Assembly (NCBI GenBank): GCA_002706765.1
Contig: PAJV01000014.1
Coordinates: 1-36,221 of the forward strand
Length of the DNA: 36,221 nucleotides
Direction: 5' to 3'
From: Gimesia sp.
Lineage (GTDB): Bacteria > Planctomycetota > Planctomycetia > Planctomycetales > Planctomycetaceae
Shown: positions 8,637-36,221 of the stretch, piece by piece
Layout: each line of letters opens with the position of its first letter
Position numbering within the stretch: position 1 is the first letter of the stretch
Made by a program: the position numbers and the translations under genes
The notes under the pieces: model-generated
What the model saw: the letters and a program-made list of their open reading frames with translations, nothing else
The model's database searches: none
What the model was told of the DNA's origin: nothing

Positions 8637-8667
8637 TTTTCGCTACGAAGCATCTAAAACCAGATAA

Positions 8668-8707: not shown

Positions 8708-8710
8708 ATT

Positions 8711-11681: not shown

Positions 11682-11745
11682 AGAATACTGCTGACTGAAC
11701 TCTAGACCGACCTGTTAATCCCACTGATGAAAAGTATCCCCTCGC

Positions 11746-12711: not shown

Positions 12712-12732
12712 TTGAATGTCGGGAGAAACGGG

Positions 12733-16194: not shown

Positions 16195-16418
16195 TTCCTG
16201 ACAGGCAATCGCTTCTTTTTCACTTAAACCTCTGGTCAGACTGCGCTTAAAGCATCCGTCCCGAACAAACCTGCAACCGCTTTTCCGTCTGAAGATTGCC
16301 GTTTTCTCAAATCCTGCTTTCTGCTACATTTCCAGCCCCATCATTCCGGCATCTCATCGTTGAATTTCCATTCCAGGTGAGGGCTATTTCTGCTTCCCAT
16401 TTCAGAGTGAGTCCTGTG
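16195..16418. other. Intergenic gap of about 220 bases
   Basis: There is no gene or clear hairpin. An open frame continues upstream of 16419 to 16296 but lacks a ribosome-binding site. Confidence 0.3.
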
Positions 16419-20840: not shown

Positions 20841-22815
20841 CCTGATCCCAGGGTATTGTCGATTTTGTCAGGTGCTTGTGTTTCGGTCTCTGTTCCAGGG
20901 ACCGCGTTGGTTTTGAAAGGACATTGTTCCAGGCCGGGCAGCCGCTACTCTCCCGGATCATCAAAAATCGTAAACTGCGGCATTGGCAATTCCGACTGCT
21001 CCAACGCTTTGAGCTGAGTTTCGATCAACTCAATGCGACTGGCGATCAATTCGCGACGGTGACCACTTTTGTTCCCAGTCCTGAAACATGGTTGCGACAT
21101 TCTCTGATGCGACTGTTGAGGCGTGACGGGTTGTTTGGATTTTTACAAGCGATCGTCCTAATCTTGAGTGGGCTTCTTTAACCTGATGACTAGTGTGTTG
21201 GGGACACAAAGGCATGCGATGCTGCTCCCTAAGGTATGCGATTCGTGAATATGGTCTTCTTAGGATGAATACATCTTGAAAGTGAAACTGATCAGCGCAG
21301 GTGCAATATGATCTGTAATATTTATTCCATCAACTGTTGAGACTTCAATTGTCTGCTTATTCAACCACCTGCTGTGGCATGTTCGCTTTTGGCAAGATAT
21401 GAAAGATGGATCGTCATTGCCGATCAGTGATCTTGAGCAATAAGCGTTGACTTTTCACATGAAAAAATGAGACTCCGCAAACACTGAGTTCATTTGTTAC
21501 GACCAGCATTCATCAGAACAATTATCATCAACCCGCATAATCAATAACTCTGCAATAGCAGTCATAAAATGCATACGGTTGGAATCCTCTACAAAGAAGC
21601 CGCCTGCATACCATTCATTTAGAGGTGCACTGCAGGAAGCCGCAACAGGTCTAATACGATTTGAAGCTAACTGTATCCAGTTTTACTGTAGCGTCTCCAG
21701 GGTCAATTGGGCCTGGTATAATAGATTGAGAGACGCTTTGATTAAGTGTGATGCGCTCTAGAATAATCGAATCTCGTGCACTCGGAATATACAGACTGCG
21801 TCTACTTCTCTGGATGATCAAAGCACATGACACATACCGGAAAACTGGCAAGATTACATCCAAACGAGAGCCGCTCCATCACTGGAGCAATTACTCTGAT
21901 TTAAAATGACGACAGAATCAGAGCCGGGCTCTTACAACCTGGGCTGTCAAAGTAGTGGGGACGTTTTCTCTTCCATCACTTCCCCGTGGCTTCATATGAT
22001 GTAGATTCCAGCTCTGAAATTCAGCACAAGTATCTTCACAAGAGAAATCAGAGAAATTTCAGTACGTTGATTTCGGGTGGCAGTTTTCCTCAGCCTGGAG
22101 AGTGATGAGGTCACTGTCTACGTGGTTGCTTCGTCTCTTCTTTCCATTGATCCTTCTTTTAAAGCGAAGAACACAACCAGGTCTCTCAGTACTGCCTGCC
22201 GGTCTCATTGAACAGACGGGAGAGCCGCTAACTGGAGAAATACCAGGGGGAATTTACCTCACGGCAAAGTTTAACAGTTACGCTGCGGTTGCGCGTTCCG
22301 CAACCCGGGCAGGGTCCAGTTAGGCAAACAGAAACGATCCTGCAGCCAGCCTTAACATAAATATTCATTTACCTGAAACGATCCCCACTTTCCTCTCCCA
22401 CGCTAATAGAGTTACAGCCGAACTTTTGATGAAGGAACGGATAACAGTTACAACTCGTCCTTTCCCGAGTGCGATACCGGAGAGATCGGTTTATTTTCAA
22501 AAAAACACCAAAGACACTCAGATTACCTAAAGTAACATTCCGATAGAATATGAGCATGAATGCGCAGCTTCCCTCTGCACCTTCACTGCGTCAGCTGAAT
22601 CTGGAATGGTTTTGTTATGGAAAGATAAGCCACATCAGTTCGAGGAATCCTGTCAGAATGTATCGCTTTGATTTCACATTTATCGGATTTGGCAGGATCA
22701 AAAACTAATGTCTTCGGGTGGTTTCAGCATCATTCGAAACCTAAATCATATAAGTAGCTAACCCCCATTAATCCCTTGGGAAGCTTTTATTTACAAGTGA
22801 GAAAGGCTGTTTGCC
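20841..22815. other. Two-kilobase region without a convincing intact gene
   Basis: The region looks less coding than its neighbours: frames are short, stops are frequent on both strands, and the composition is AT-richer by eye. A few frames read like real protein but lack starts or are interrupted: minus 20945-21100, minus 21497-21682 (contains NEWYAGGFFVEDSNRMHF), minus 21651-21863, and plus 22550-22708 (52 codons). They could be relics of decayed genes. No tRNA, insertion-sequence ends or array were seen. The part near 22700-22815 must contain the flagellin promoter; I could not pin it down. Confidence 0.5.
20945..21100 (-). CDS. Possible small protein or gene remnant, 51 residues
   Basis: A minus-strand frame starting at ATG 21100, with HRRELIASRIELIETQLKAL near its middle and a tail of PQFTIFDDPGE. 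The sequence is amphipathic-helical and coding-like, but it has no recognised family and only a weak AGAGA ahead of the start. The frame stays open upstream for another 16 codons without a start, which is compatible with a truncated 3' end of a larger gene. Low certainty. Confidence 0.25.
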   Translation of the reverse strand: MSQPCFRTGNKSGHRRELIASRIELIETQLKALEQSELPMPQFTIFDDPGE

Positions 22816-24627
22816 ATGACACGAATTAATACTAACGTTGCCTCGCTGAGAGGTCTGCGTAGTTTAAACAAATCTACAAATCTTCTGGATACCTCACTGA
22901 CACGATTGTCAACCGGTTTGAAAATCAACTCGGGTAAAGATAATCCATCAGGTCTGATCGCCAGCGAAACTCTGCGATCTCAGGTATCTGCTATTGAACA
23001 ATCCATTAAAAACAGTAACCGTGCCAGCAACGTAATCGCGACTGCTGACTCGGCTCTGGGCGAAGTCACTAACCTGTTAAACCAGGTACGTGGTCTGGTC
23101 CAGGAAGGTTTGAACAAAGGGGCATTGTCCCAGGACGAAATCGCTGCAAACCAGTTGCAGATCGATACTGCTTTGTCAGCCATCAACCGAATTTCCGCCA
23201 ATACATCTTTTGCTGGTGATAAACTGATTGACGGAAGTAAAGCGTTCCGTACTCAGTCTTCTGCAGTTGACTCTGCAAAACTCTCCGACTTTCAGGTAAA
23301 CGAAGCCGTATTTGGTTCCAGCAGTTCCATCACCCTTGACGCCACCATTGTTACAGCTGCCACCCAGGCCAGTCTGGATTACAGTGCCGTTGATGGCGGC
23401 CTGGCATCGGCATCCACAATTGAAATTGGCGGTTCCAGCGGTTCACAGGTGCTCTTCCTGGGTGCCTCCAGTACTCTGGACAACGTTAAAGATGCTGTGA
23501 ACGGCGTGACCGACATTACTGGTGTCACTGCCGCAAAGACGAACAAGGTGGCCAGCAACCTGACCCTCGCTAACGCCAACGCGACGAACTCAGGCCTGAC
23601 ATTTACCGATGCCCGTACTTCAGACAGTATCCTGGGTGATACAGGACAGAATATTCGCGTACAGTTTGTAGACCCTGCTACGAACAGTGCTGCTGCGAAC
23701 ATTTCCTTCAGCAATACGAATACAGATATTACGATTGTCGTCAGTCTGGCGACCGATGGTTCAAGTGTTATTACATCAGACGCTGCCTCCATCAAAACTC
23801 TGCTCGATGGTAACGCCGATGTGAACTCTCTGATTTCTACCGCTGCGGAAGGTGACGGTTCCGGTGTCGTTGAAGCCGAAGCTGCTGCTGCTTTGGCTGG
23901 TGGTACCAATGCCTACCTGACATTCAGTGCTTCCAACTACGGTGCAGATGAATTCGTCGATGTTAACGTGCTGTCTGGTACGTTTGACACCGTCGATACC
24001 ATTGCCACGGGCAACTCGCTGAAGCGTGCCATTGGTTCGGACATCGTTGCCCGTATCAACGGTCAGGTCGCTCAGGGTTCCGGACTTACGGCTAACCTGC
24101 GGTCTCAACAGTTGGATGCTTCGTTCTCCTTCACCGCTGCTGCGAACACAACCAATAATACTGCCAGCATGACAATCACCGGTGGTGGATCACTGTTCCA
24201 GATTGGACAGGACGTATCAGCCGCTGGTCAGGTCGGTATCGGAATCGAAGCCGTCAACACAGCCCGTCTGGGTGGTGTTTCCGGTAAATTGTTCGAACTC
24301 GGCTCGGGTGGTGGTAAGAGTCTGCTGGACGTCGGTCCTTCGGTTCCCGGTTCTGACCTGGTGAACATCATCGAAGAAGCCGTCAACCGTGTTTCGACTC
24401 TCCGTGGTCGTCTGGGTGCGATTCAAAAGAACGTGATCGAAACCAACGTCTCATCACTGGGTGTTGCCCTGGAAAATATTTCTGAAGCACGCAGCCAGAT
24501 TGTGGACACCGACTTCGCTGTCGAAACCGCAAATATGACCAAAGCTCAGATTTTGAACCAGGCTGGTATTTCGGTTCTCTCGATTGCCAACCAGAACCCA
24601 CAGCAGGTATTGAGTCTCCTCGGTTAA
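22816..24627 (+). CDS. Flagellin
   Basis: 603 residues. The N-terminal D0/D1 half begins TRINTNVASLRGLRSL and has LDTSLTRLSTGLKINSGKDNPSGL, and the C-terminal D1/D0 half ends with SLGVALENISEARSQIVDTD and ILNQAGISVLSIANQ. Both fit bacterial flagellin, and the ends stack into the filament core. The central region (about 145-510) is long, Ser/Thr/Asn-rich and beta-like, with hook-IN-type motifs such as STIEIGGSSG followed by VKDAVNGV. It is surface-exposed and a natural target for O-glycosylation. The start has GAGAAAGG upstream at about 22799-22806. It is followed by a terminator and by a glycosyltransferase/methyltransferase gene set, then fliD and fliS. Length is above the minimal about 280 residues and within the range of long flagellins. 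Confidence 0.96.
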   Translation: MTRINTNVASLRGLRSLNKSTNLLDTSLTRLSTGLKINSGKDNPSGLIASETLRSQVSAIEQSIKNSNRASNVIATADSALGEVTNLLNQVRGLVQEGLNKGALSQDEIAANQLQIDTALSAINRISANTSFAGDKLIDGSKAFRTQSSAVDSAKLSDFQVNEAVFGSSSSITLDATIVTAATQASLDYSAVDGGLASASTIEIGGSSGSQVLFLGASSTLDNVKDAVNGVTDITGVTAAKTNKVASNLTLANANATNSGLTFTDARTSDSILGDTGQNIRVQFVDPATNSAAANISFSNTNTDITIVVSLATDGSSVITSDAASIKTLLDGNADVNSLISTAAEGDGSGVVEAEAAAALAGGTNAYLTFSASNYGADEFVDVNVLSGTFDTVDTIATGNSLKRAIGSDIVARINGQVAQGSGLTANLRSQQLDASFSFTAAANTTNNTASMTITGGGSLFQIGQDVSAAGQVGIGIEAVNTARLGGVSGKLFELGSGGGKSLLDVGPSVPGSDLVNIIEEAVNRVSTLRGRLGAIQKNVIETNVSSLGVALENISEARSQIVDTDFAVETANMTKAQILNQAGISVLSIANQNPQQVLSLLG

Positions 24628-24661
24628 TCCGCGGCTGAATCAGTAACCAACTGAAATTATG

Positions 24662-24700
24662 AAAACACTATCCATCTTCTGGTGGGTAGTGTTTTTTATT
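24662..24700 (+). terminator. Intrinsic terminator after flagellin
   Basis: AAAACACTA (24662-24670) pairs with TAGTGTTTT (24687-24695), with a further CCA/TGG pairing inside, followed by a T-rich tail. It separates the flagellin transcript from the downstream glycosyltransferase gene. Confidence 0.85.
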
Positions 24701-24876
24701 TATCCCCCCACCTCCCCCCAGCCTGACATGCCAGCTTGAGTCAAAAGACCGTGATTGCACCTGATTTGCCCTTGTCTGAAGAATCCACTTATCTCTCCCC
24801 TCATCGCAGCCGATACAAACAGAATAACCGGAAAAGTCTGTCTGGGATTCCGTATCCGGCAGTTTTGCTCAGCACC

Positions 24877-24895
24877 GATTGAAATATTTTCAATC
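24877..24895. promoter_or_regulatory. Perfect inverted repeat upstream of the GT41/methyltransferase gene
   Basis: GATTGAAA-TAT-TTTCAATC is an 8-bp perfect inverted repeat with a 3-base centre, ending 25 bases before the start codon at 24921. Its size and place suit a dimeric repressor operator, or a small hairpin. No regulator gene is adjacent. Confidence 0.4.
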
Positions 24896-24920
24896 ACCAA
24901 CGTGATTCAAAGAAAATCTC

Positions 24921-27900
24921 ATGCCTTCACTTAAGGAACTATTGGGAACTGCGGTTCAACAGCACCAGGCGGGAAATCTCCCCCTGGCGGAGCAACTCTA
25001 CCGTGAAGTGCTGCAACACGATCCCGGTCAGGCTGACGCCCTGCACCTGCTAGGCGTGGTTTATCTGCACCTGAAACAGTTTTCCAAAGCCATTGATTTC
25101 ATCACGCGGGCGATCAGCCAGAACGACGGCATAGGCGCTTTCTTTTCAAATCGCGGTGCCGCCTGTAAAGGCCTGGGAAAATTTGAAGACGCGATTACCA
25201 ATTACCAGCGCGCCATTGAACTGGAACCCCGTAATGCCGCCTTCACTTATAATCTGGCAATTACCCTGGCGCTGACGGGTGAAAAACAACAGGCGATCAA
25301 AGCCTATCGAAAAGCGCTGGAACTGAAACCGGGCTATCCGGATGTTCTGATCAACCTCGGCAACCTGTTACTGGAAACCGACGAGATCGAGGAAGCCATC
25401 CAGATCTGTCAGCGGCTCGTGCAGTTGTCACCAGATCTCCACACTGCTCAATTCAATCTGGCCAACGCACTGGCAAAATCAGATGCTCCGGAATCGGCAG
25501 AAGCAGCCTATGAGCGCGCTTTACAGCTGGCTCCCCATCATCTGGATACCATGAAGAATTACGCCGTATTTCTTTCTGCACAAGAGAAATACGAAGCTGC
25601 GATTTCCGTCCTGAGGAAAGCGGCCGTTCTGGAACCGAGAAACTGGGAAGTCCTGAATAATCTGGGAATTGTTTATACCGAACAGGAGGCTTTCGAGTCG
25701 GCCATCTCCTGTTTTGACGAAGCATTAAAGTATGCGCCGGAAAACTGCGATATCCGTTTTCATCTGGGTAAAGCCCTCGAAGCGTCAAAGCAGACCCACG
25801 AGGCCATGATCGTGTTCCGGGACGTTTTGAAAAAACAACCTCACCATCCGGGAGCCGCATTTCACCTGGGATCCCTGGTCGCCATGCTGGGCGATTATGG
25901 ACAGGCATACGATATCTTCCAGCGACTGTATCAGAGTGATCCGACCAATACAGCTTCATTGTTCGGGATGGGATCCGTCAGACTCAAGCAGGGAAAAGTC
26001 GGTTCTGCTGTCGGTTATTTCGAAACACTGGCAGGCCTCGAACCCGACCATCTGCCTTCCCGTCTGCACCTGATCGATCTCTATTCGCGCCAGATGCGTA
26101 ATCATGAAGTCGAAAAACATGTCGAAGAGGCCCTGGTAACTCACCCCGAGAATGCAGTGCTCTGGAACTACAAAGGACACATCCAGAATCAGAAGAAGCA
26201 ATTCAAGAAAGCACTCAAAAGTTTTCTCCAGGCTGTCGAACTCGATGATACCTATTTGCATTCCTACAGTAATCTGGCAACCGTCTACCAGTCTATGGGT
26301 ATGTTTGCGGAAGCAAAACAGGCTCTGGAAAAAGCATACGAGCTGGCTCCCCTCCCGGAATATCGACTCGCCCTGGCCAGCTTACTGCCTCCCATTCCGG
26401 CCTCGCTGGATGAAATCCAGGAAGTTCGCGACACATTCGTTCAAAACATTGAAGAGATGCACGATGATAAAGTTCAGATTGACGCATCAATCAAATTAAC
26501 TCCGGGAACCTTTTACCTCGCCTATCAGGGTTACAATGACCGCCCCATCATCGAACGGATGGCAGAGTTGTATCGGGTCAAAAACGATCTCAGCTGGAAC
26601 CCCGAGGCACCGACGGTCGAGCGGAATGGAAAAATTCGTATCGGATTTATTTCCAGTCTGTTTTACAACCATACCATCGGCTCTCTGATGAAAGGCATCA
26701 TCCGGAATTTCGACCGGGAAAAGTACCATGTCATCACGATTTCCCCGACGAAATATATGGATGCCGTTGCTACGGAAATTCGCAGTGATTCGGATGAATA
26801 TGTCTTTCTGGGAATCGAATTACGCCAGGCCAGCCAAGTCCTGCAGAGCCTGGAACTGGATGTACTCTTCTATGCCGACATCGGCATGGATCCGTTTATC
26901 TTCTCACTGGCGACCACCAGACATGCTCCCGTACAATGCGTGACCTGGGGACATCCCATCACGACCGGGCTGAAGACCATTGATTATTTCATCTCCAGTA
27001 AACTTATTGAACCGGAAGACGCACAGGAACACTACTCTGAACAACTGGTTCAGCTGGACTCGTTGCCTTCCTATTATTATCGCCCTGCTCTGCCGGAAAA
27101 AATCAAAAACCGGGCAGCCTTCGGTCTGTCCGATGACGAACATGTTTACGCCTGCCCCCAGACCCTGTTTAAGATTCATCCCGAATTTGATCAGATCCTG
27201 GCAGGAATCCTCGAACGGGACTCGCAAGCCCGGATCGTAATGATTCGGGACCAGACTTCAAAATGGAAAGACCTGCTGGTAACCCGGTTTAAAAAATCAT
27301 TCCCGGAACTGGTAGACCGGATTCTCTTCCTGCGGGGCATGTCGACTCCCGACTTTTTGAACCTGATTTATATCTCAGATGTATTGCTCGACCCGCTGCA
27401 CTTTGGTGGGGGAAACACATCCTATCAGTCAATGGCGATCGGCACTCCGGTTGTCACCCTGCCGGCAAAATACATGCGTGGCCGGGGCATGCTCGCGATC
27501 TACAATAAAATGGGACTGCAGGACTGCGTGGTCAATTCCATTGATGAATACATCGAACTGGCCTGTCGCATCGGTTCTGATGAAACATTCCGCGATCAGC
27601 TTCGCCTGAAGATCCTCTCCAAGAGCCACCTGGTCTTTGAAGACATCAACACGATTCGTGAATTGGAAACATTTTTCGTCTCCGCTTTAGAACACTGCAA
27701 CACGCGGCAGCCTGTCAATCAACCACTTCTCAGTCTGAGCAGCTCGGACAACAGCAAGGAACCCAGCATGGATGCTTCAATCAATCAGCCAGGAAACGCT
27801 GATCACATTAAAATCCTGAATTCTGCCATGCAGAATTACACTTGCCCCGCCTGTGGTTATCATATCGCAGTCCAGTTTTACGATGGGGGATTACTCCCCT

Positions 27901-29123
27901 TGACCACACTGGCCTGGCCGCAGAGCAGTGAAGAAGCTCAGGCAATGGAGCGACTGCCGCATGACTTTATGCGATGCGTTGACTGTGGTCATATCTCAAA
28001 TGCCGCCTTCGATTATGCCAAGGTCCCTTATTCAGACAAACCCAACCTGATGTTTAATAAAGGTGCGATCTGGTCCGAACACCTGCAGAAGGTCTGTGAT
28101 CTGATTGCCGTCAGACTGCCGGAAAATCCCACCGTCGTCGAAATTGGTTGCGGCGAGGGACACCTGTTGCGGTCGCTGGCAAAAAAGATCCCTTCTGGTA
28201 AATTCATTGGCTTTGATCCCAATGCAGAAATCGAAACGGAAGACGGCTTGATCGAAGCGCGTACAATGCTGTTCGAGCCCGGGCTGCATCTGTCTGAACT
28301 GCAGCCGGACCTCATCATCAGTCGTCACGTTTTTGAACACCTGATGAATCCGCTGGGCTTTGCCCAGGAAGTGGCCTTTGCCGCCAATGTGGCCGAATGT
28401 GCAACCAGTCTGTTTATAGAAGTCCCCTGTATTGATGGTGTGCTGGCAGCGGGCCGGACTGTGGACTTCTTCTATGAACATAATTCTCACTTCACGACAC
28501 AATCACTGGAACGCTTACTGAAACGCTGTGCCACCAGCGTCGACCTGATTGAAACCAGTTATAATGACGAAGTCATTTACGGAATCGCCAGCTTCCAGCC
28601 TCAGAGTCACCAGGTTGAACTGGCGCGGCAGGCAATTGCCTTTCAGGAAAAAGCACGGCTGTCAGCAACACAACTTGCTGTGCAATTTGATGAACTGGCA
28701 GAATCCGGCACGCGGACTGCCATCTGGGGAGGCACCGGAAAAGCAGCTGCCTTTATCAATCAACACAAGCTGGACAAACAACGTTTCCCGACAGTCGTTG
28801 ATTCAGACATGAATAAAGTGGGCACATTCGTCCCGGGCACCGGTCAGGAAATTCTGTTCCGTGACGGGCTTGTTGAACAACCAGTCGATGTCATTCTGAT
28901 TGCCACACAATGGCGGGCCGCTGATATCGTGCTGGAAATTCAACGAAATCAAATCCCCTTCGAAACAATCCTGATCGAATATCAGGGAAAACTCATTGAT
29001 TATTTTCAGGATCAACATCCCTACCGTAGTTCAGAGTCACCATCGGAAAAGCAGGTACCACGCCCCCAATTTCTCTCGCAGAAAAATCGTCAGCGGGAAT
29101 CAAATGAGCTGGATCTGAATTAG
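24921..29123 (+). CDS. TPR / O-GlcNAc-transferase-like (GT41) / sugar C-methyltransferase-like fusion protein
   Basis: 1400 residues in three parts. Residues 1-490 are tandem TPRs (FEDAITNYQRAIELEPRN, QQAIKAYRKALELKPGYP and about ten more). Residues about 569-925 are a GT41/SPINDLY-type glycosyltransferase: RIGFISSLFYNHTIGSLMKG aligns with the OGT segment around its catalytic His, LFKIHPEFDQIL with the OGT nucleotide-binding Lys, and LDPLHFGGGNTSYQSMAIGTPVVT (in pieces: LDPLHFGGGNTSYQ, SMAIGTPVVT) with the nucleotide-sugar loop. After a linker, residues 974-1370 match C-methyltransferases of deoxysugar pathways: a zinc-binding pair (C974-x2-C near CPACGYH; RCVDCGH near 1018), a SAM motif VEIGCGEGHLL (about 1072), FEHLMNP, and a C-terminal WGGTGKAAAFI domain. 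GT41 enzymes transfer sugars to Ser/Thr; the position right after flagellin suggests flagellin as acceptor. The frame is continuous; no stop separates the modules. Confidence 0.9.
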   Translation: MPSLKELLGTAVQQHQAGNLPLAEQLYREVLQHDPGQADALHLLGVVYLHLKQFSKAIDFITRAISQNDGIGAFFSNRGAACKGLGKFEDAITNYQRAIELEPRNAAFTYNLAITLALTGEKQQAIKAYRKALELKPGYPDVLINLGNLLLETDEIEEAIQICQRLVQLSPDLHTAQFNLANALAKSDAPESAEAAYERALQLAPHHLDTMKNYAVFLSAQEKYEAAISVLRKAAVLEPRNWEVLNNLGIVYTEQEAFESAISCFDEALKYAPENCDIRFHLGKALEASKQTHEAMIVFRDVLKKQPHHPGAAFHLGSLVAMLGDYGQAYDIFQRLYQSDPTNTASLFGMGSVRLKQGKVGSAVGYFETLAGLEPDHLPSRLHLIDLYSRQMRNHEVEKHVEEALVTHPENAVLWNYKGHIQNQKKQFKKALKSFLQAVELDDTYLHSYSNLATVYQSMGMFAEAKQALEKAYELAPLPEYRLALASLLPPIPASLDEIQEVRDTFVQNIEEMHDDKVQIDASIKLTPGTFYLAYQGYNDRPIIERMAELYRVKNDLSWNPEAPTVERNGKIRIGFISSLFYNHTIGSLMKGIIRNFDREKYHVITISPTKYMDAVATEIRSDSDEYVFLGIELRQASQVLQSLELDVLFYADIGMDPFIFSLATTRHAPVQCVTWGHPITTGLKTIDYFISSKLIEPEDAQEHYSEQLVQLDSLPSYYYRPALPEKIKNRAAFGLSDDEHVYACPQTLFKIHPEFDQILAGILERDSQARIVMIRDQTSKWKDLLVTRFKKSFPELVDRILFLRGMSTPDFLNLIYISDVLLDPLHFGGGNTSYQSMAIGTPVVTLPAKYMRGRGMLAIYNKMGLQDCVVNSIDEYIELACRIGSDETFRDQLRLKILSKSHLVFEDINTIRELETFFVSALEHCNTRQPVNQPLLSLSSSDNSKEPSMDASINQPGNADHIKILNSAMQNYTCPACGYHIAVQFYDGGLLPLTTLAWPQSSEEAQAMERLPHDFMRCVDCGHISNAAFDYAKVPYSDKPNLMFNKGAIWSEHLQKVCDLIAVRLPENPTVVEIGCGEGHLLRSLAKKIPSGKFIGFDPNAEIETEDGLIEARTMLFEPGLHLSELQPDLIISRHVFEHLMNPLGFAQEVAFAANVAECATSLFIEVPCIDGVLAAGRTVDFFYEHNSHFTTQSLERLLKRCATSVDLIETSYNDEVIYGIASFQPQSHQVELARQAIAFQEKARLSATQLAVQFDELAESGTRTAIWGGTGKAAAFINQHKLDKQRFPTVVDSDMNKVGTFVPGTGQEILFRDGLVEQPVDVILIATQWRAADIVLEIQRNQIPFETILIEYQGKLIDYFQDQHPYRSSESPSEKQVPRPQFLSQKNRQRESNELDLN

Positions 29124-29130
29124 AAATAAA

Positions 29131-29166
29131 GTAAAGCAAACCGCCGCTCCGTTCTGTCAGCTTTAC
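29131..29166 (+). other. Small hairpin between the fusion gene and the sulfotransferase-like gene
   Basis: GTAAAGC (29131-29137) pairs perfectly with GCTTTAC (29160-29166) across a 22-base loop. There is no T-run, so it is not a normal terminator. It may be a weak processing or attenuation element. Confidence 0.25.
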
Positions 29167-29193
29167 AGGGCCAACCCTTTTACAGGAACTATT

Positions 29194-29883
29194 ATGATTA
29201 TTTTCAATTTTGGCATCCCCAATTCCGGTACCGACTGGTCACAGGCCGTCTTTCAGAAAATCTGGCAGCATCAAAGCTTTGAATTCCGTTCGGAAAAAAC
29301 AAACTCGATGGAAGAACTGAACCAGGTAATTGGAAGTATGGATGTAGAGGAACGGTTGATCCTGCAGTTTGATTTTTTAACTCAAGAGGCGATTGCAGCC
29401 GCCCAGCAGGATGCAGTACGTCCTTTTTATCACTATCGTGATCCCCGTGATGTCGTGTGTGCCGAAATGGAATACCGGGACATGACATTTGCAGACGCTG
29501 TTGACCAGACGGTTGCCGCGTATCAGGAAATTCATCACGCTCTCTGCCTGCCTGGAATCATGGTGATTCCCTACGAACATCTGCTAGGTAATGCGGAAAG
29601 CCTGATTTTCCAGATGGCAACCAAGCTGGGTGTCCTGCTCAAGCTGGCTGACGTCGCTGCCATCGCAGAGGAAATGAAGGACCTGCTGTCAGGTTCACCA
29701 ACCGTCAACAGCGCCCAGGCTTCATCCCAGGCACTGCGAATCGATGCGGAGCATACAGAAGAATCTGCACCGGTTCACTCATTACACATCGGGAAATGGC
29801 GGGAACGACTTTCACAGTCTGAACAGGCGATGGTCACCCGATTTTTTAAGCCGCTCGTGACGCAGTTTGGTTACGGCGAATAA
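29194..29883 (+). CDS. Sulfotransferase-like protein with altered PAPS loop
   Basis: 229 residues. The start IFNFGIPNSGTDW (residues 3-15) parallels the PAPS 5'-phosphosulfate loop, usually written PKSGTTW. The segment YHYRDPRDVVCAEMEY (79-94) matches the 3'-phosphate loop (R-x-P-x-D). HIGKWRERLSQSEQ (198-211) resembles the C-terminal G-x-W segment that closes the PAPS site. The lysine normally seen in the first loop is Asn10 here, which could weaken sulfuryl transfer or mark a divergent subgroup. The gene follows the GT41 fusion by about 70 bases, with AGGA at 29184-29187. In context it may sulfate the flagellin glycan; substrate and activity are inferred. A degenerate, inactive or binding-only role is possible. 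Confidence 0.65.
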   Translation: MIIFNFGIPNSGTDWSQAVFQKIWQHQSFEFRSEKTNSMEELNQVIGSMDVEERLILQFDFLTQEAIAAAQQDAVRPFYHYRDPRDVVCAEMEYRDMTFADAVDQTVAAYQEIHHALCLPGIMVIPYEHLLGNAESLIFQMATKLGVLLKLADVAAIAEEMKDLLSGSPTVNSAQASSQALRIDAEHTEESAPVHSLHIGKWRERLSQSEQAMVTRFFKPLVTQFGYGE

Positions 29884-29920
29884 TTCTCTCTATCAGCAAA
29901 ATAAACCAGGGAGGGAGACC

Positions 29921-30772
29921 ATGCTGCCCCTTAATCAATTGTGCACTCTGGACTGTCACCGGGACGGTTTTGAACTGACAGAGAAACTCAAAAATCAATA
30001 CACAGAAGAGGGTGCCATCCTGGTAAAGGGGCTGTTCTCGCCTGATGAGTATCTCCCCCTGCGCAAAGACCTGTCGGGGCGACTCTCGCTGCTGGAAACT
30101 CACTTCGGTGCTGCCAGCCTGCAGAACGAAAATGAGATCACACAAATCAGCGATCGCCTGCGTGATCTCGAATCGAGTCACCCGGGCGCACAGAGTATTT
30201 TATATGACTCCATGAATGCCGCGCCGTCATTACATACCATGGGAGCACATCCAAAATTACTGGCGATCCTGGAAGCACTGCTTTCACCGGAAATCTCCCT
30301 CCATGATCGCTACATTATTCTCATGAGTATGCCCCAGGCTGAGTGGCACCTGGCCACCTGGCATCAGGACTGGTATTACAACGAAGGCCCTTATTCTACG
30401 ATTACCCTCTATGCACCTCTGCAGAAAACAGATCAGAATAACGGAAGCCTGACACTCGCGCTGGGAGAGCACCGGAAAGCGCCTGTCGCCCACGATGAAC
30501 ACGACCATGGCATCAACACCAAGTGGCATTCCCTGCCTCCCGAGGTCGTTCAGCAATATGATCGGGTGGTCCCGACCGCCCTGGAAGTCGGCGATGTCCT
30601 GTTGTTTCACAGCCTGACCCCCCATACACCCTGCAAAAATCAGTCTGATTATGTCCGGTTCGTCTTAAACCTGCGGTATCGTGATCTGCGAGATCCCCAG
30701 TTTCTGAGAGATGGCTGGCGCATCAAAGACATTACACATGCCAGACGGGCCATGCAGCGAACCGCATCATAA
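29921..30772 (+). CDS. Phytanoyl-CoA dioxygenase (PhyH)-family 2-oxoglutarate/Fe(II) oxygenase
   Basis: 283 residues. The metal triad is visible as WHQDW (H148-x-D150) and a distal His in LFHSLTPHTPC (H235, less likely H230). A later R246 (DYVRFVLNLRY) fits 2-oxoglutarate binding. N-terminal EEGAILVKGLFSPDE is the usual start of the fold. Family members hydroxylate lipids, small metabolites or sugars and halogenate some substrates. I start at ATG 29921, preceded by the strong AGGGAGGGAGA (29908-29918), not the TTG at 29867 that overlaps the sulfotransferase-like gene. Between a sulfotransferase-like gene and an O-methyltransferase, it plausibly oxidises the flagellin glycan or a precursor. 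Confidence 0.85.
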   Translation: MLPLNQLCTLDCHRDGFELTEKLKNQYTEEGAILVKGLFSPDEYLPLRKDLSGRLSLLETHFGAASLQNENEITQISDRLRDLESSHPGAQSILYDSMNAAPSLHTMGAHPKLLAILEALLSPEISLHDRYIILMSMPQAEWHLATWHQDWYYNEGPYSTITLYAPLQKTDQNNGSLTLALGEHRKAPVAHDEHDHGINTKWHSLPPEVVQQYDRVVPTALEVGDVLLFHSLTPHTPCKNQSDYVRFVLNLRYRDLRDPQFLRDGWRIKDITHARRAMQRTAS

Positions 30773-30837
30773 CCAGAATTTTCACACGACTTCCTGTCTG
30801 ATTTCACTTTCTACATCATAAATAAAGCGTATTTCAA

Positions 30838-31620
30838 ATGTCAGAAAAAAAAGGGCTGTTAAAAGGAAACGTAGGCGAGTCACAAAATCAGTCGAACAGT
30901 GACCTGAATGCGTTGAATGCGGTCGAAGAATATTGGGAATCGAGCGTCGGCTCGAACCTGAACAAACTCGATGCGTTTACCAAGTATGTCTCCCGCCAGT
31001 CCATTACAAAACTTCTGGCCCGCTACGAAATTTTCCGACAGCAACTCGAAGTCAATGGATCAATCGTCGAACTGGGCGTGCACCGCGGTGCCAGCCTGAT
31101 GGCATGGGCGCAATTCAGCGCGATCCTGGAACCGGTCAACTATCTCCGCAAAATCATCGGCTTTGATACCTTTGAGGGCTTCCCTTCATTGAGCGAAAAG
31201 GACACCACGGGTACCAGCGAGCACCTGGAAGTGGGCGGGTTTAAATCAGAAGAAAACGCCATGGAAGACCTGGAGAAAGCAATTCAGGTTTATAATTCCA
31301 CTCGTTACCTGAATCATATTTCGAAAGTCGAACTGGTCAAAGGAGATATCAGTGCCACTCTGCCGGCGTACCTGGAAAAGAATCAGCACCTGGTGGTGTC
31401 CCTGCTGCACCTGGATGCCGATCTGTATGAGCCGACCAAAGTCGCGCTGGAACTGCTGATCCCCCGGATGCCTAAGGGGGCGATCATCGCCTTTGATGAA
31501 CTCAATATGGATCTATTTCCAGGTGAAACATTAGCAGCCATGGAAACCCTCGGGCTGCCAAATCTGCGATTGAAACGTTTCCCGTTTGCGACTTCGCTTT
31601 CTTACGCCGTGATCGAATAA
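30838..31620 (+). CDS. TylF/MycF-type SAM-dependent O-methyltransferase
   Basis: 260 residues. SAM binding is shown by SIVELGVHRGASLMAWAQF (motif I at about 77-86) and IIGFDTFEGFPS (107-117). The later LLHLDADLYEPTKVALELL (about 189-207) and MPKGAIIAFDELN carry the acidic residues that bind the metal in TylF/MycF sugar O-methyltransferases. Those enzymes methylate hydroxyls of sugars on natural products; similar genes also occur in glycan clusters. The ATG is at 30838; no strong Shine-Dalgarno is present (AATAAAG lies upstream). It lies between the PhyH gene and fliD, so methylation of a flagellin-linked sugar is the inferred job. An alternative is a precursor pathway. Confidence 0.85.
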   Translation: MSEKKGLLKGNVGESQNQSNSDLNALNAVEEYWESSVGSNLNKLDAFTKYVSRQSITKLLARYEIFRQQLEVNGSIVELGVHRGASLMAWAQFSAILEPVNYLRKIIGFDTFEGFPSLSEKDTTGTSEHLEVGGFKSEENAMEDLEKAIQVYNSTRYLNHISKVELVKGDISATLPAYLEKNQHLVVSLLHLDADLYEPTKVALELLIPRMPKGAIIAFDELNMDLFPGETLAAMETLGLPNLRLKRFPFATSLSYAVIE

Positions 31621-31623
31621 ACC

Positions 31624-31678
31624 ACACCACCCAGCCGCTATAATCCACAGAAACTGACTCCGAAGCCAGGGTGGTAGT
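31624..31678 (+). other. Weak imperfect hairpin after the O-methyltransferase gene
   Basis: ACCACCC (31626-31632) pairs with GGGTGGT (31669-31675), extended by CAC/GTG across a one-base bulge, loop about 36 bases, no T-run. The loop contains a TATAAT (31639-31644). Function is uncertain. Confidence 0.25.
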
Positions 31679-31697
31679 GTGCCAGCTGGTACTCCGT

Positions 31698-31726
31698 TCA
31701 AGCAGCAACCTTTAACTAACCGATAA
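31698..31726 (+). promoter_or_regulatory. Candidate sigma-28 (FliA)-type promoter of fliD
   Basis: ACCGATAA at 31719-31726 matches the flagellar sigma-28 -10 consensus GCCGATAA at 7 of 8 positions. TCAA (31698-31701) could be the -35, but the spacer of 17 is about two bases too long. The box is 82 bases before the fliD start. Confidence 0.4.
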
Positions 31727-31808
31727 ATACTTAGATGCAGCAGTCCTGCATGCGCGGACTGATTTCTGAGGACTCTCAGCTAATTTATCTTGAAACAGGC
31801 TTGGTAAC

Positions 31809-34538
31809 ATGTCAGGCATCAGTTCCGGTGTCGGTCTGGCAACCGGATTGAATATCAATGAGATTGTGGACGCGATCATCGGCGTGCAACGCAATGCCCT
31901 GGTGAAACTTGCGAACCGCGCTTCTGCCTTTGAAGCAACCGAAGGGGGTATTAAAACCCTCGAAGCCAACCTGCTGACCCTCAACAATTCAGTCAAGAAA
32001 CTGGGTCTGAAAAGTACCTTTGAAACCCTGCAGGCCACCAGTTCTGACACCAGCCAGTTCAATGTCGCCGCCAACAGTACGGCCACCGCCGCATCTTACC
32101 AGTTGCAGGGGCTGCGTCTGGCTTCGAACCATCAGGTCGTTTCGAAGGGCTTCGCCGATGCCGACTCCACTCCCATCGGAACGGCAACGACCATCACGCT
32201 TTCACAAGGCGGAAAGCTGAACGAATCGAAACTGCTGGAAGAATTAAATAATGGCCTGGGAGTCCAGCGTGGCAGCATTCGCATCACTGACCGCGACGGT
32301 CAGACCGAAGTCATCGATCTGACGAGAACACTCAACATCCAGGATGTGGTCGATGAAATCAACGGTTCCGCCACTTCCATTGTTGCCAGTATCGAAGACG
32401 ACCACCTCGTGCTGACCGATACCAGTTCCGGGCTCGGAACCCTGAAAGTCTCCGAAGTCGCGGGGGGAAAAACCGCCGCCGACCTGGGAATACTGCAATC
32501 TGTCGCAGGCTCGACATTAACGGGCGATTCCGTCTATCGCGTCACCAGCGATTTCAACCTGTCGCAGATCAACGATGGTAACGGCATTAATACTGTCAGT
32601 GGTTTAGAAGATCTGCAGATCACGGCCTCTGATGCATCGACTTTCAATGTCAATCTGGATTCAGCCCAATCACTGGGTGATGTCGTCGATCTGATCAATA
32701 ATAATGCCTCTAATGGCGGTATAGTCACTGCAGAAATTACCAGTGCTGGCAAACTGAGTCTGACCGACAACACCGGTGGAGTTGCCACGACGTTTGAAGT
32801 GACCGCCTTGAACGGCTCACTGGCGGCCCGTGAACTGGGAATCGAGACCACAGGACTGGGCGGCACAATAACAGGTACATTATCAGGAGGCCTGAACTCG
32901 GTTTTACTGCGAAATTTAAATGGCGGCGTCTCGGCCAGCGGTCCCGTCCTGAATGCCGGCCAGGTTTATTTTGAAGATGGCGCAGGCGGAAATGCGACTA
33001 TTGATTTTACAGGTGTCGAAACACTGGATGATGTAATTGATGCCATCAATGCGAACGGCAGCATTCAGATCGAGGCCAGTCTCAACGCCACCAAAACTGG
33101 TATCCAGATTAAAGACACTTCCGCGGCTTCAGGAACGTCGATCGAAATCCAGGATACCTCGGGTAATCTGGCCAGCTTCCTGAAAATCGATACGCTCCTG
33201 GCCGACTCCAAACACACTGTTGATTCCGGTTCCCTCGATTTACGTTACATCAATCAGGACACCTCACTGTCAACTTACGGGAAAAACGGGACAGCCGTTT
33301 CCCTGGGCAGTATCCGCATCACCGACCGCGCCGGGGTCAGTTTCAACGTCAACCTTTCTGATCCTGAAACAACGAAAACCGTCGGAGACGTGCTTACAAA
33401 AATCAATGATGCTGCAGGCACCGCCGGTGCCCAGGTCATAGCACGGCTGAACGACACCGGTGACGGCTTTATTGTGGAAAGTACCGGCGGCAGCGCTTTT
33501 GACGTTAAAGTGGAAGAAGTTTCCAGCGGTACCGTTGCCGCCACCCTGGGAATTAAGGGATCGGGAACGATGGGAGTCACCAGTCGCCAGGTCACAGAAA
33601 TTTCTGTGGAAGCGACTGATACACTTGAAGACATTACAGAAAAGATTAATGCCACTGGAGTTGCTTCCGCCACGATCATCGATGATGGAACCGCGTTTAA
33701 TTCCGCACGTCTTTCGATTACCTCGTCCCGCAGTGGCGCTGCCGGCGGGTTGACTCTGGAAAGCGATTTTAATTTCGGATTCGCCACTTCGGTTGAAGCA
33801 GATGATGCATTAATCCGTATCGGAAGTAATCCCCAGACTTCATTTCTGTTGACCTCTTCTACCAACAGTTTCAATGACGCCATCACCGGCCTGGAGATCG
33901 ATCTGAAGTCGGTCGGGACCTCTCCGTCAACCATCAACGTCGCCCGGGATACCTCGGGAATCAAAAGTACAATCAATTCGTTTATCACGTCTTATAACAG
34001 TTTTGTAGACGCGACAAAAACACTGACCAGCTACAACGTCGACACCAATCAGCGGGGAGTGCTGAACGGAAACAGTGTGGTTCTGACCACAGTTTCCCGC
34101 CTGGAAGGAATGCTGACCAAAAAACTTTCCATCAGCAACAGCGCCATCAAAAGCATGTCTGAACTGGGAGTCCAGTTTAACGGTAATGGAAAACTGGAAT
34201 TGAACAGCGCGACCCTCGAAGCGCTCCTGGCGGACGACCCCGATTCCGTCACCGAGTTCTTCCAGCAGGAAGACACCGGTTTTGCAGTCGTCATGGACGA
34301 AATCATCACTGCGATGACCGATCCGTTTACCGGAACACTTAAAGCACAGTCCGATTCCCTGCAGGCTTCAGCACTGGCATTGAATAACCGCGTTGACGAA
34401 TTGAACACGATTCTGGAAGACCGGCGTGAACGCCTTATTCGCCAGTTCACGCTTCAGGAGACCATCGTGAACCAGTTGAATTCGCAACAGACTGCGCTCG
34501 AAAGTCTCACATTACTGAATACGAACAAAAAGAAATAA
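31809..34538 (+). CDS. fliD: Flagellar hook-associated protein 2, filament cap (FliD)
   Basis: 909 residues; FliD is usually 450-700, so this is long. The N-terminus SSGVGLATGLNINEIVDAII is a standard FliD start, and the C-terminal third (about 690-905) with TDPFTGTLKAQSDSL and late coiled-coil LNTILEDRRERLIRQF is FliD_C. The extra length comes from a central array of flagellin hook-IN-like units: GSIRITDRDG near 154, LQITASDAS near 268, VYFEDGAGG near 386, GSIRITDRAG near 499, TEISVEATD near 596, each with a V..[VI]...IN pattern. FliD caps the growing filament and folds flagellin. It is followed 51 bases later by fliS, the flagellin chaperone gene. Confidence 0.95.
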   Translation: MSGISSGVGLATGLNINEIVDAIIGVQRNALVKLANRASAFEATEGGIKTLEANLLTLNNSVKKLGLKSTFETLQATSSDTSQFNVAANSTATAASYQLQGLRLASNHQVVSKGFADADSTPIGTATTITLSQGGKLNESKLLEELNNGLGVQRGSIRITDRDGQTEVIDLTRTLNIQDVVDEINGSATSIVASIEDDHLVLTDTSSGLGTLKVSEVAGGKTAADLGILQSVAGSTLTGDSVYRVTSDFNLSQINDGNGINTVSGLEDLQITASDASTFNVNLDSAQSLGDVVDLINNNASNGGIVTAEITSAGKLSLTDNTGGVATTFEVTALNGSLAARELGIETTGLGGTITGTLSGGLNSVLLRNLNGGVSASGPVLNAGQVYFEDGAGGNATIDFTGVETLDDVIDAINANGSIQIEASLNATKTGIQIKDTSAASGTSIEIQDTSGNLASFLKIDTLLADSKHTVDSGSLDLRYINQDTSLSTYGKNGTAVSLGSIRITDRAGVSFNVNLSDPETTKTVGDVLTKINDAAGTAGAQVIARLNDTGDGFIVESTGGSAFDVKVEEVSSGTVAATLGIKGSGTMGVTSRQVTEISVEATDTLEDITEKINATGVASATIIDDGTAFNSARLSITSSRSGAAGGLTLESDFNFGFATSVEADDALIRIGSNPQTSFLLTSSTNSFNDAITGLEIDLKSVGTSPSTINVARDTSGIKSTINSFITSYNSFVDATKTLTSYNVDTNQRGVLNGNSVVLTTVSRLEGMLTKKLSISNSAIKSMSELGVQFNGNGKLELNSATLEALLADDPDSVTEFFQQEDTGFAVVMDEIITAMTDPFTGTLKAQSDSLQASALALNNRVDELNTILEDRRERLIRQFTLQETIVNQLNSQQTALESLTLLNTNKKK

Positions 34539-34589
34539 CAGCGAACGAAATTACGATCTATTTCAATTACATAAAGGGCCACCAGGGAG

Positions 34590-35063
34590 ATGAACGGAAA
34601 AGACTATCTCGAAAATCAGGTACTGACAGCAAAACCACTTCAGTTACATCTCATGGTCGTCGACGGTGCACTGCGTTTCGCCAGAAAAGCAGCGCTGGCT
34701 GCAGCAGATAAACATTTTGAGCAGGCACATTTCGCGCTTGATAAAAGTCGTGACCTGGTAGCCGAACTGATTGGCGGACTGGACCCTTCCCAGCAGCCCG
34801 AAATGGTGGAACAACTGAAGGCACTGTTTGTGTTCGTCTATGAAAATCTGCATCACGCTGATGTGAAACAGGATGCCAGTTTTATCCAGAGTGCAATCAA
34901 AGTTCTTGAGATCCACCGGGAAGGCTGGTGTGATCTGATGGCAATGCTCAAGGATGAAACTCCGGAAGCACAGGCTGTAATCCACTCCCACGAGTCTCTA
35001 CAACGGCCACACCATCTGGAGCAGGCCGAACAGCCACATCAAAGCCGCTCCTGGTTAACCTGA
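34590..35063 (+). CDS. fliS: Flagellar protein FliS, flagellin chaperone
   Basis: 157 residues. It begins MNGKDYLENQVLTAKPLQLHLMVVDGALRFARKA (read in pieces: NGKDYLENQVLTAKP, LQLHLMVVDGALRFARKA), the expected FliS pattern of an N-terminal helix, a T-A-x-P hinge and an aliphatic helix with a charged G-A-x-R/K-F segment. The remaining helices fit its four-helix bundle. FliS binds the flagellin C-terminus in the cytoplasm and prevents early polymerisation. The C-terminal 30 residues (HESLQRPHHLEQAEQPHQSR) are a His/Gln-rich extension beyond the usual 125-130. The ribosome site is odd: AGGGAG (34584-34589) touches the ATG, while AAAGGG lies 12 bases upstream. Confidence 0.92.
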   Translation: MNGKDYLENQVLTAKPLQLHLMVVDGALRFARKAALAAADKHFEQAHFALDKSRDLVAELIGGLDPSQQPEMVEQLKALFVFVYENLHHADVKQDASFIQSAIKVLEIHREGWCDLMAMLKDETPEAQAVIHSHESLQRPHHLEQAEQPHQSRSWLT

Positions 35064-35091
35064 TCCTTGTACGGATAAATTGCTGCCGCGC

Positions 35092-35127
35092 ATTAAAAAA
35101 GCACTCTCACCCGTTTGATGAGAGTGC
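35092..35127 (-). terminator. Intrinsic terminator for the minus-strand pilin genes
   Basis: GCACTCTCA (35101-35109) and TGAGAGTGC (35119-35127) form a 9-bp stem. On the minus strand it is followed by a T-run (plus-strand A6 at 35095-35100). There is no T-run on the plus side, so it terminates the small pilin genes, not fliS. Confidence 0.8.
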
Positions 35128-35188
35128 CTGAGGTGGAGACCTCCGCCTCGATGCAAGCCTGCTTCCTTTCGGAAACTCTTAACGTACC

Positions 35189-35506
35189 TTAGTAGTAGCC
35201 GTTACCTTCTTTGCGTGGAGAACGGTCGCAGACGATATCGTTCTCGCCATCACAGAAATCAGCCTGGTCATTAAAGCTGCTGCCGTCCGTGCAGGCTTTA
35301 TGGCCGTGGGCTCCTGCGACGTAGAAGCTCTGGTTAATCCGCCCGAAGGCACTGCCGACATCTTCCAGTTCCTGGTTGACGCCATGGGCCACTTCACTCA
35401 GCCCGACAATCATGGCCAGCACGGCGATGGTGGAAATCAGGACTAATTCTGAGGAGACAATAAAGCCGGCCTCGTCATTCATTAAACGGATCAGCATGGT
35501 TTTCAT
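35189..35506 (-). CDS. Flp-like mini-pilin, paralogue A
   Basis: 105 residues from ATG 35506, chosen because GGAG lies 9 bases upstream in the same context as its neighbour and because the start leads straight into the pilin-like segment. The longer frame to 35659 is not used. MKTMLIRLMNDEAGFIVSSE then a hydrophobic helix (LVLISTIAVLAMIVGLSEV) resembles Flp/TadE-type prepilins (short leader, D-E-x-G, then a helix with a Glu). If cut after Gly14, the Glu (E20) falls at +6, not the usual +5. The soluble part has three cysteines (72, 85, 93) and ends RSPRKEGNGYY. It probably builds a fibre or sits in the inner membrane; no Tad assembly genes are in view. Confidence 0.7.
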   Translation of the reverse strand: MKTMLIRLMNDEAGFIVSSELVLISTIAVLAMIVGLSEVAHGVNQELEDVGSAFGRINQSFYVAGAHGHKACTDGSSFNDQADFCDGENDIVCDRSPRKEGNGYY

Positions 35507-35558
35507 GGTGAAAGACTCCAGAAAGAGAGTTGGTTCGGATGGTTTATGGTGTTCGGGA

Positions 35559-35587
35559 GCCTGCAGGGGTGGTGAAGCCCTGCAGGC
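35559..35587 (-). promoter_or_regulatory. GC-rich hairpin between the two mini-pilin genes
   Basis: GCCTGCAGGG (35559-35568) and CCCTGCAGGC (35578-35587) form a perfect 10-bp stem with a 9-base loop. No T-run follows, so it is more likely an mRNA-stability or processing element, or a leaky attenuator, in the gap between the paralogues. Confidence 0.6.
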
Positions 35588-35643
35588 GGTTGTCGTCGGA
35601 AAGAAAGCACGTTTCGGGGTAGTCGAAGAATTCCGCGTGAGGA

Positions 35644-35922
35644 TTACTGCACGTCCCACTGACCTGAGCAGAAGTCAGGGCAGTCATTGAAGCTGCTGGA
35701 ATCGGTGCAGGCTTTGTGGCCATGTGAGTAGCTGAGCTTGTAGGACTGATCGATACTGGAGAAGGCACTGCCGACATCTTCCAGTTCGTTATTGATGTTG
35801 TTGGCGACTTCAGACAGTCCGACAATCATGGCCAGCACAGCAATGCTGGAAATGAGTACGAGTTCTGCAGAAACAATGAAGCCGGCTTCGTCGTTGATCA
35901 GCTGGTTAAGAACATTTTTCAT
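35644..35922 (-). CDS. Flp-like mini-pilin, paralogue B
   Basis: 92 residues from ATG 35922, with GGAG ahead of the start in nearly the same context as paralogue A. The first 60 residues are about three quarters identical to A: NDEAGFIVSAELVLISSIAV, then LAMIVGLSEVA and ELEDVGSAF. HGHKACTD is also shared, so the C-terminal part is conserved around the first cysteine. B ends sooner (DFCSGQWDVQ) and lacks the RSPRKEGNGYY tail. The cysteines are at 72, 81 and 85, so the later spacing differs from A. It is the upstream gene of the pair; the promoter is expected in 35923-36100. Confidence 0.7.
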   Translation of the reverse strand: MKNVLNQLINDEAGFIVSAELVLISSIAVLAMIVGLSEVANNINNELEDVGSAFSSIDQSYKLSYSHGHKACTDSSSFNDCPDFCSGQWDVQ

Positions 35923-36221
35923 CGTGGTAGTCTCCAAAGTTGTATAAAAGGTTTTGCATCGAGTTGTCTGGGTTTCAAAGTTGATAAAGGGATGTAAAGC
36001 AAGCTGAATACCAAAGGTGCCAAACCGTAAATCTTTTTTGACAAACTGTTCAGAATCAAAACTGTAAGTGATTACTGTAAAGGGAGATAAAAAAAGGAGG
36101 CGAGATAGAGATTTTCCGCAACAGGCAGGAAACGGCACACAGCCGCTTGAGGCGAAAAAGCAACGCGCCCGGAGCACCAGTCGGTTAATATCACGTAACC
36201 TGTTGAAAGTTTTTAAGTTAG
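35923..36221. other. Upstream region of the mini-pilin pair, to the window edge
   Basis: About 300 bases with no gene that I can support; an open minus frame from 36177 is only the upstream extension of paralogue B. A TATACA on the minus strand about 20 bases before the start of B could be part of a promoter, but the boxes are weak. Confidence 0.35.

Follow-up and report, generated by a model that had tools for sequence, protein, structure and literature searches.

A putative GT41-type flagellin glycosylation island between fliC and fliD of Gimesia sp.

The Gimesia locus and described GT41 systems

Flagellin islands of the Enterobacteriaceae carry GT41 proteins of the SPINDLY/O-GlcNAc transferase (OGT) type, most of them with a methyltransferase domain, according to the survey that described them (De Maayer and Cowan, 2016, PMC4875605). 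We analyzed a comparable gene block in a window of 36,221 nt of Gimesia sp. contig PAJV01000014.1 (assembly GCA_002706765.1), where the window is the whole stretch of DNA studied, coordinates without a locus handle are window positions, and handles in G and L denote genomes and loci, respectively. At 22816-35063 on the + strand lie genes for FliC, a TPR-GT41-methyltransferase fusion protein, a sulfotransferase-fold protein, a PhyH-family protein, a TylF/CalS11-type protein, FliD, and FliS, in that order. A first-pass annotation of this DNA had reported seven genes in a row on one strand, and this was borne out by the list of open reading frames (ORFs) and by Pfam and NCBIfam scans of the window proteins, which supplied the domain calls. 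On sequence evidence, we regard the locus as a probable GT41-type (OGT-like) flagellin glycosylation island, with a probability of roughly three in four (0.76).

22816..24627, + strand: flagellin FliC, 603 aa, presumed acceptor (PF00669 Flagellin_N 88 bits and PF00700 Flagellin_C 80 bits, both above cut-off)
24921..29123, + strand: TPR-GT41-methyltransferase fusion, 1400 aa (TPR, PF13844, PF13489, and PF08484 above cut-off)
29194..29883, + strand: sulfotransferase-fold protein, 229 aa (fold search and conserved motifs; Pfam score below cut-off)
29921..30772, + strand: PhyH-family Fe(II)/2-oxoglutarate dioxygenase, 283 aa (PF05721 45.3 bits)
30838..31620, + strand: TylF/CalS11-type sugar O-methyltransferase, 260 aa (PF05711 46.4 bits)
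31809..34538, + strand: FliD filament cap, 909 aa (PF07195 145 bits, PF02465 49 bits)
34590..35063, + strand: FliS flagellin export chaperone, 157 aa (PF02561 88.7 bits; TIGR00208 above cut-off)

FliC, FliD, and FliS each exceed their own Pfam cut-offs, and the remaining listed ORFs of at least 80 aa within the interval all overlap the seven genes. The four modification enzymes that had been placed between flagellin and its cap and chaperone genes correspond to four genes as proposed, but to five activities, with the GT41 domain fused to a sugar-C-methyltransferase-like domain. The scans detected no sugar-biosynthesis gene among the seven.

We compared this arrangement with the enterobacterial islands by their published description, not by sequence. 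As described there (PMC4875605), the shared features are an enzyme block adjoining flagellin, a GT41 protein with a methyltransferase domain, and further tailoring enzymes. By contrast, the enterobacterial islands lie between fliC and fliA, include sugar-biosynthesis genes, vary within species, and have foreign G+C, whereas the Gimesia block lies between fliC and fliD, is without sugar-biosynthesis genes, is stable across the genus except for one apparently lost gene pair, and has ordinary G+C (0.50-0.53 in the enzyme genes compared to 0.51 for the window). Thus, the Gimesia block has the glycosyltransferase gene among filament genes that marks an island of this type, but neither the divergent G+C nor the sugar-biosynthesis genes; nor were mobile elements, a further mark, noted, although no search was aimed at them. 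The main text of the survey mentions neither a sulfotransferase nor a dioxygenase. We rejected a recent foreign island as an explanation for the Gimesia block, given its ordinary G+C and genus-wide conservation.

Clusters in Burkholderia, Paraburkholderia, and Janthinobacterium likewise carry relatives of the methyltransferase domain and one to several GT41 genes beside fliD or fliC, and a distant TylF-type gene (27-30% identical) occurs in 8 Burkholderia loci, with FliD also present in 7. In these clusters, however, the GT41 and methyltransferase genes are separate, there are often several GT41 copies, and neither the sulfotransferase-fold nor the PhyH protein was matched. Some Burkholderia flagellar clusters (L165, L170, L171, L174, L179, L180, and L182) have four GT41 frames around the methyltransferase gene, beside fliD. 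OGT, SPINDLY, and bacterial GT41 proteins have the TPR-GT41 core in common with the Gimesia protein, which adds a C-terminal methyltransferase. CalS11 (4gf5) matches the TylF-type protein in sequence and is part of the calicheamicin (antibiotic) pathway; the Gimesia gene sits in a flagellar locus instead.

In Halobacterium salinarum, sulfotransferases act on glycans, including those of archaellins (PMC11980604). The likeness is in sulfotransferases that work on swimming-filament glycans; the difference is that the glycan is an archaeal, N-linked tetrasaccharide on another filament and made by another glycosylation route (PMC11980604). Our searches of the openly licensed PMC literature, which leaves out most subscription journals, showed no study of planctomycete flagellin glycosylation, no sulfated bacterial flagellin, and no report of this tailoring enzyme set in planctomycetes. 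The first-pass annotation, which knew of no description of this set in planctomycetes, had left the published enterobacterial GT41-methyltransferase islands unmentioned. This kind of OGT-type island is already known, and it is the Gimesia tailoring set that looks new.

Enzymes of the locus and their distribution in the genus

The genus set comprised 17 genomes including that of the window, of which G015 is 74% complete. The fusion gene was found in 16 (in G011 only its C-terminal part, cut by the contig end), as was the sulfotransferase-like gene, with G015 the exception in both cases. Flagellin lies upstream of the enzymes in all 14 genus contigs that are long enough (those of G006 and G011 are cut), and FliD and FliS lie downstream in 16 of 16, with FliS cut by a contig end in two. 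That gene order is kept across the genus implies that the arrangement is more than chance. The proposed comparative check, whether the set is conserved next to flagellin, therefore gave a positive answer in all genus contigs covering the site, and a largely negative one outside the genus, where the homologues mostly lie apart from flagellin.

The fusion protein consists of TPRs (residues ~1-480), a GT41 domain (~560-930; PF13844 87.8 bits, cut-off 25, with TPR families also above cut-off), and a sugar C-methyltransferase-like part (~965-1400), in which the C-terminal PF08484 domain scores 38.8 bits compared to a cut-off of 23.5. In an alignment with human OGT, SPINDLY, and bacterial OGT (5djs, 8dtf, 3pe3), its SSxFxNH and LxKIxP segments align with those of human OGT, and the fusion keeps both the His of the first and the Lys of the second, the catalytic residues of OGT. 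The fusion is the sole GT41 (PF13844) match in the 7.9 Mb genome. Among solved proteins, its methyltransferase part matches D-mycarose 3-C-methyltransferase and TcaB9 weakly. A Maf-type system was considered and rejected: PF01973 matched in 0 of the 17 genus genomes, in a scan whose only matching controls were four archaea, so that its sensitivity to bacterial Maf is undemonstrated.

The PhyH start codon that agrees best with the genus alignment is the ATG at 29921, whereas the listed ORF begins at a TTG at 29867. Residues H150, D152, H237, and R248 (numbering of alignment A2, two residues ahead of the ATG start) are invariant in 14 rows; we take the first three to be the HxD...H facial triad that binds the metal and R248 to be the 2-oxoglutarate-binding Arg. 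The best solved relative of the TylF-type protein is CalS11, a TDP-rhamnose 3'-O-methyltransferase (138.8 bits over query residues 49-252). Together with an RmlC gene present in the genome, this match makes dTDP-rhamnose a candidate for the sugar.

The PhyH and TylF-type genes occur in 14 of the 17 genus genomes and are absent from G001, G009, and G015. In G001 and G009, the sulfotransferase-like gene is followed directly by FliD, and no orthologue of either gene was found elsewhere in these genomes, where the only PhyH match was one of 32% in G009. The methyltransferase-domain tree places G001 and G009 as sisters (98/97), adjacent to the pair-bearing G005 and G012; the FliD tree gives the G001-G009 pairing less strongly (69/68), with both inside the same starred four-genome clade. 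The simplest reading is that the pair was lost jointly and once, and a single joint loss would imply that the two enzymes work together. A TylF search of 392 phylum genomes (E≤1e-20) matched 26, 10 of them in the genus, and the loci of the 16 non-genus genomes and of G021 were examined (17 loci). PhyH adjoins the TylF relative in two of these, L214 (G411, 7348-10290, which also holds a methyltransferase-domain relative) and L212 (G173, 944-2490), and GT41 occurs in L213 and L217. That the two genes also adjoin in two further lineages of the phylum argues for a single module. A phage search with TylF matched 14 of 50,697 records, all below 60% identity and none covering 80%.

The call of a sulfotransferase-like protein fared unevenly. 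The Pfam Sulfotransfer_1 score is 18.8 bits compared to a cut-off of 22 (21.6 for the relative in G034, a genome outside the genus), and no solved relative was found by sequence at E≤1. By contrast, a fold search with an AlphaFold2 model (mean predicted local distance difference test score 68.6) had a best E of 6.9e-8, and each of the 50 matches listed is a sulfotransferase or the related retinol dehydratase, an enzyme of the same fold although not named a sulfotransferase. Moreover, GIPxSxTxW and RxPxDV motifs, which we take to bind 3'-phosphoadenosine 5'-phosphosulfate (PAPS) as cofactor, are invariant in 17 rows from Gimesia to G034.

Whether the protein is active as a sulfotransferase is uncertain, and the possibility that it is instead another transferase or a scaffold, leaving the glycan unsulfated, stands only somewhat below even odds; it is compatible with a flagellin glycosylation island. 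Consistent with inactivity, residue 60, presumably the position of the SULT catalytic His (assigned by topology only), is Asp in 10 of 17 rows, including the window protein, and His in 7, and the protein is the least conserved enzyme of the island (64-83% identity in the genus, relative to the window protein, compared to 92-97% for TylF). The sub-cut-off Pfam score and the lack of a solved sequence relative point the same way. Against inactivity stand the invariant cofactor-loop motifs, the sulfotransferase fold of the listed matches, an adenosine 5'-phosphosulfate (APS) kinase gene in the genome, and retention of the gene in 16 of 17 genomes. From fold and cofactor motifs, sulfation of a flagellin glycan is plausible.

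Flagellin, putative regulatory sites, and flanking DNA

The first-pass annotation had singled out a Ser/Thr-rich centre of this flagellin as the site of modification. Ser plus Thr make up 23.5% of the centre, compared to 23.3-27.3% in five flagellins from other genera without adjoining enzymes. A specially Ser/Thr-rich flagellin was therefore rejected, since the content of the centre does not exceed that of the comparison proteins. Four sites in the DNA around the genes may be regulatory.

22608..22643, + strand: 36-base block 5' of flagellin, with one and the same sequence in all tested genus loci long enough to include it
24661..24696, + strand: terminator-like hairpin 3' of flagellin, 16 pairs and then a T run (consensus match only)
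24788..24816, + strand: CTTATC-N15-GCCGATAC site 5' of the fusion gene, candidate sigma-28-type promoter
31698..31726, + strand: TCAAGC-N15-ACCGATAA site 5' of fliD, resembling a sigma-28 site, with a putative promoter function

The 36-base block, ~170 bases upstream of flagellin, is exact in 14 of the 15 genus loci tested, the sole miss being L045, whose contig is cut inside flagellin. Among the loci examined, it otherwise occurs only in L001 (from the genome of the window) and L111 (likewise a genus contig), and the sequence flanking it varies between genus loci. The block is probably regulatory. The hairpin is no more than a consensus match, as a scan of the region gave 21 terminator-like sites compared to 13.0 expected.

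Upstream of the fusion gene, CTTATC-N15-GCCGATA is exact in 13 of the 14 genus loci that span the site, and in the remaining locus, L036, the first base of the pattern deviates; upstream of fliD, TCAAGC-N15-ACCGATA is present in 16 of 16. Both CCGATA sites were found by alignment and not by a sigma-28 pattern scan, whose one match in the window lies on the opposite strand inside the TylF gene. A FliA-family sigma factor is encoded in the genome, and the spacing of the sites is looser than the sigma-28 consensus. We make the weak inference that the CCGATA sites are sigma-28-type promoters, which would tie the enzymes to late flagellar genes. A sigma-70-type scan of 22400-35300 was uninformative (7 promoter-like sites compared to 11.1 expected). 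A single operon from fliC to fliS seems unlikely, given the hairpin and the two conserved CCGATA sites.

Between an IscS-type aminotransferase gene and flagellin, ~2 kb (20841-22815) hold no convincing gene (one 101-aa ORF is listed). On the minus strand, 35189-35659 and 35644-36177 encode adjoining, similar small proteins with a common hydrophobic NDEAGFIVS stretch, pilin-like by appearance only.

Relatives outside the genus, rival explanations, and proposed pathway

Searches outside the genus drew first on a set of 59 genomes (the 17 of the genus and 42 others). The flagellin check covered 33 flagellin-centred loci from 28 non-genus genomes of the class (E≤1e-5; several loci cut by contig ends). 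FliC, FliD, and FliS are contiguous without the enzymes in L078 (G024), L095, L099, L102, L103, and L106, which thus show the empty arrangement, and a single weak GT41 match in the 33 loci was in L096. In another genus of the same family, two TPR-GT41 genes flank flagellin, FlaG, and FliS (L069, G026, 7725-17944; a locus chosen because of its GT41 and additional to the 33). A second locus of that genome, L079, has three flagellins with TPR-GT2 proteins alongside.

Named genomes were searched with patterns that represent the methyltransferase domain only (alignment A3), which yielded 85 relatives. Of their loci, 80 were kept and scored with profiles of flagellar and GT41 proteins from planctomycetes; contig ends truncate many of these loci, and the counts are uncorrected for kinship. 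GT41 was present in 65 of the 80 loci, fused to the methyltransferase in six. A full FliC or FliD was found in 27, 24 of them also with GT41 (any flagellar match at a looser setting, 29), and in 23 of 76 after removal of four genus contigs. Those 23 comprise 14 from Burkholderia or Paraburkholderia, 2 from Janthinobacterium, and 7 others. In L120, from another planctomycete (methyltransferase 58% identical), fliC, fliD, and a fused GT41-methyltransferase gene lie in a row, with fliS next on the opposite strand.

This repeated association of GT41 and methyltransferase with flagellin in other lineages supports a flagellin glycosylation island in Gimesia. The same interpretation is supported by adjacency across the genus, the single GT41 protein with its OGT His and Lys, the PhyH ligands, and the CalS11 match, and also by the empty fliC-fliD-fliS loci, the published enterobacterial GT41-methyltransferase islands, the lack of a PF01973 (Maf) match, and the presence of RmlC and APS kinase.

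Several results weigh against it. The 33 flagellin-centred loci contained no match to the methyltransferase, sulfotransferase-fold, PhyH, or TylF proteins. In G034, GT41, methyltransferase, and a sulfotransferase relative (33% identical) are neighbours among unrelated genes, ~0.94 Mb from flagellin. A full FliC or FliD is absent from 53 of the 80 methyltransferase loci, within the DNA covered and with some contigs cut, and none of the 17 TylF loci elsewhere in the phylum had a flagellar match, which implies that the TylF family alone is not flagellar. In Prochlorococcus L183 (6411-13837), a TPR-GT41 protein, the methyltransferase, a TylF relative (61%, full-length), and an adjoining PhyH relative (36%) are encoded alongside a second PhyH and a member of the NDP-sugar dehydratase/epimerase family, with no flagellar match within the 21 kb covered; hence the enzyme set can serve another acceptor. 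The ordinary Ser/Thr content of the flagellin centre and the lack of sugar-biosynthesis genes in the island count on the same side. Decoration of flagellin stands as the best reading of the locus, with genus adjacency behind it, even though homologues outside the genus mostly lie away from flagella.

A TPR-sulfotransferase lies near GT41 and methyltransferase genes in L186, also from Prochlorococcus. Among the 42 non-genus genomes, sulfotransferase relatives besides that of G034 were found only in G052 (30%, E 1.6e-6), and TylF relatives only in G021 and, as a fragment, in G030. G030 has GT41 and methyltransferase in neighbouring open frames (L048), and directly 3' of them lies the short TylF fragment (2969-3121, 75% identical), which suggests decay of a formerly longer cassette. 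The enzymes resemble a general kit for the tailoring of glycans, one repeatedly put to use beside flagella.

Such a kit could decorate another surface protein, of a stalk, fibre, or pilus, and owe its position between fliC and fliD to history or shared regulation. The Prochlorococcus locus, with the same kinds of enzymes and no flagellar match, and the G034 block among unrelated genes favor this alternative, and the hairpin after flagellin and the fusion gene's own upstream site would permit separate expression. We nevertheless regard it as unlikely, in view of the adjacency in every genus contig that reaches flagellin, the GT41-methyltransferase pair beside FliC or FliD in several other lineages, and the fusion being the genome's only GT41 match. 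It is very improbable that the enzymes act on lipopolysaccharide, a small molecule, or a free nucleotide sugar instead of flagellin: both methyltransferase parts have small sugar methyltransferases as their best solved relatives (a strong match to CalS11 and weak ones to D-mycarose 3-C-methyltransferase and TcaB9), all of antibiotic pathways, but the island holds no other biosynthetic genes, fusion to TPR-GT41 is a protein-acting architecture in a flagellar context, and prior tailoring of a nucleotide sugar would still suit flagellin glycosylation.

In the pathway that we propose for flagellin glycosylation, the TPR part of the fusion would hold flagellin in the cytosol before export, and the GT41 part, with a housekeeping nucleotide sugar as donor, would glycosylate Ser/Thr in the exposed centre of flagellin. 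The methyltransferase of the fusion would methylate the transferred sugar, PhyH would hydroxylate it, and the CalS11-like enzyme would O-methylate it, the last two as a coupled pair. The sulfotransferase-fold protein would add sulfate, or formerly did, and FliS would hand the modified flagellin on to export beneath the FliD cap. The presence of a glycan on flagellin, its structure, and the order of reactions are predictions from the genes. Of the methylated, oxidised, and possibly sulfated glycan of the first-pass annotation, methylation is backed at the level of the enzymes, oxidation by the metal ligands, and sulfation by fold and cofactor motifs only. A more tentative reading, on balance doubtful, is that the fusion builds a sulfated flagellin glycan, finished by a removable module in which the CalS11-like enzyme methylates a hydroxyl made by the dioxygenase, so that the glycan of G001 and G009 would be lighter.

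The sulfated flagellin glycan, if true, would be new for bacterial flagellins within the openly licensed literature; sulfation of swimming filaments would then not be confined to archaea. G001 and G009, without the PhyH/O-methyltransferase pair, would offer, if the strains are available, a natural comparison by mass spectrometry without genetics. The locus would extend OGT-type flagellin decoration to planctomycetes by a compact set of five activities without sugar-making genes, a chemistry that may for this reason be small enough to reconstitute.

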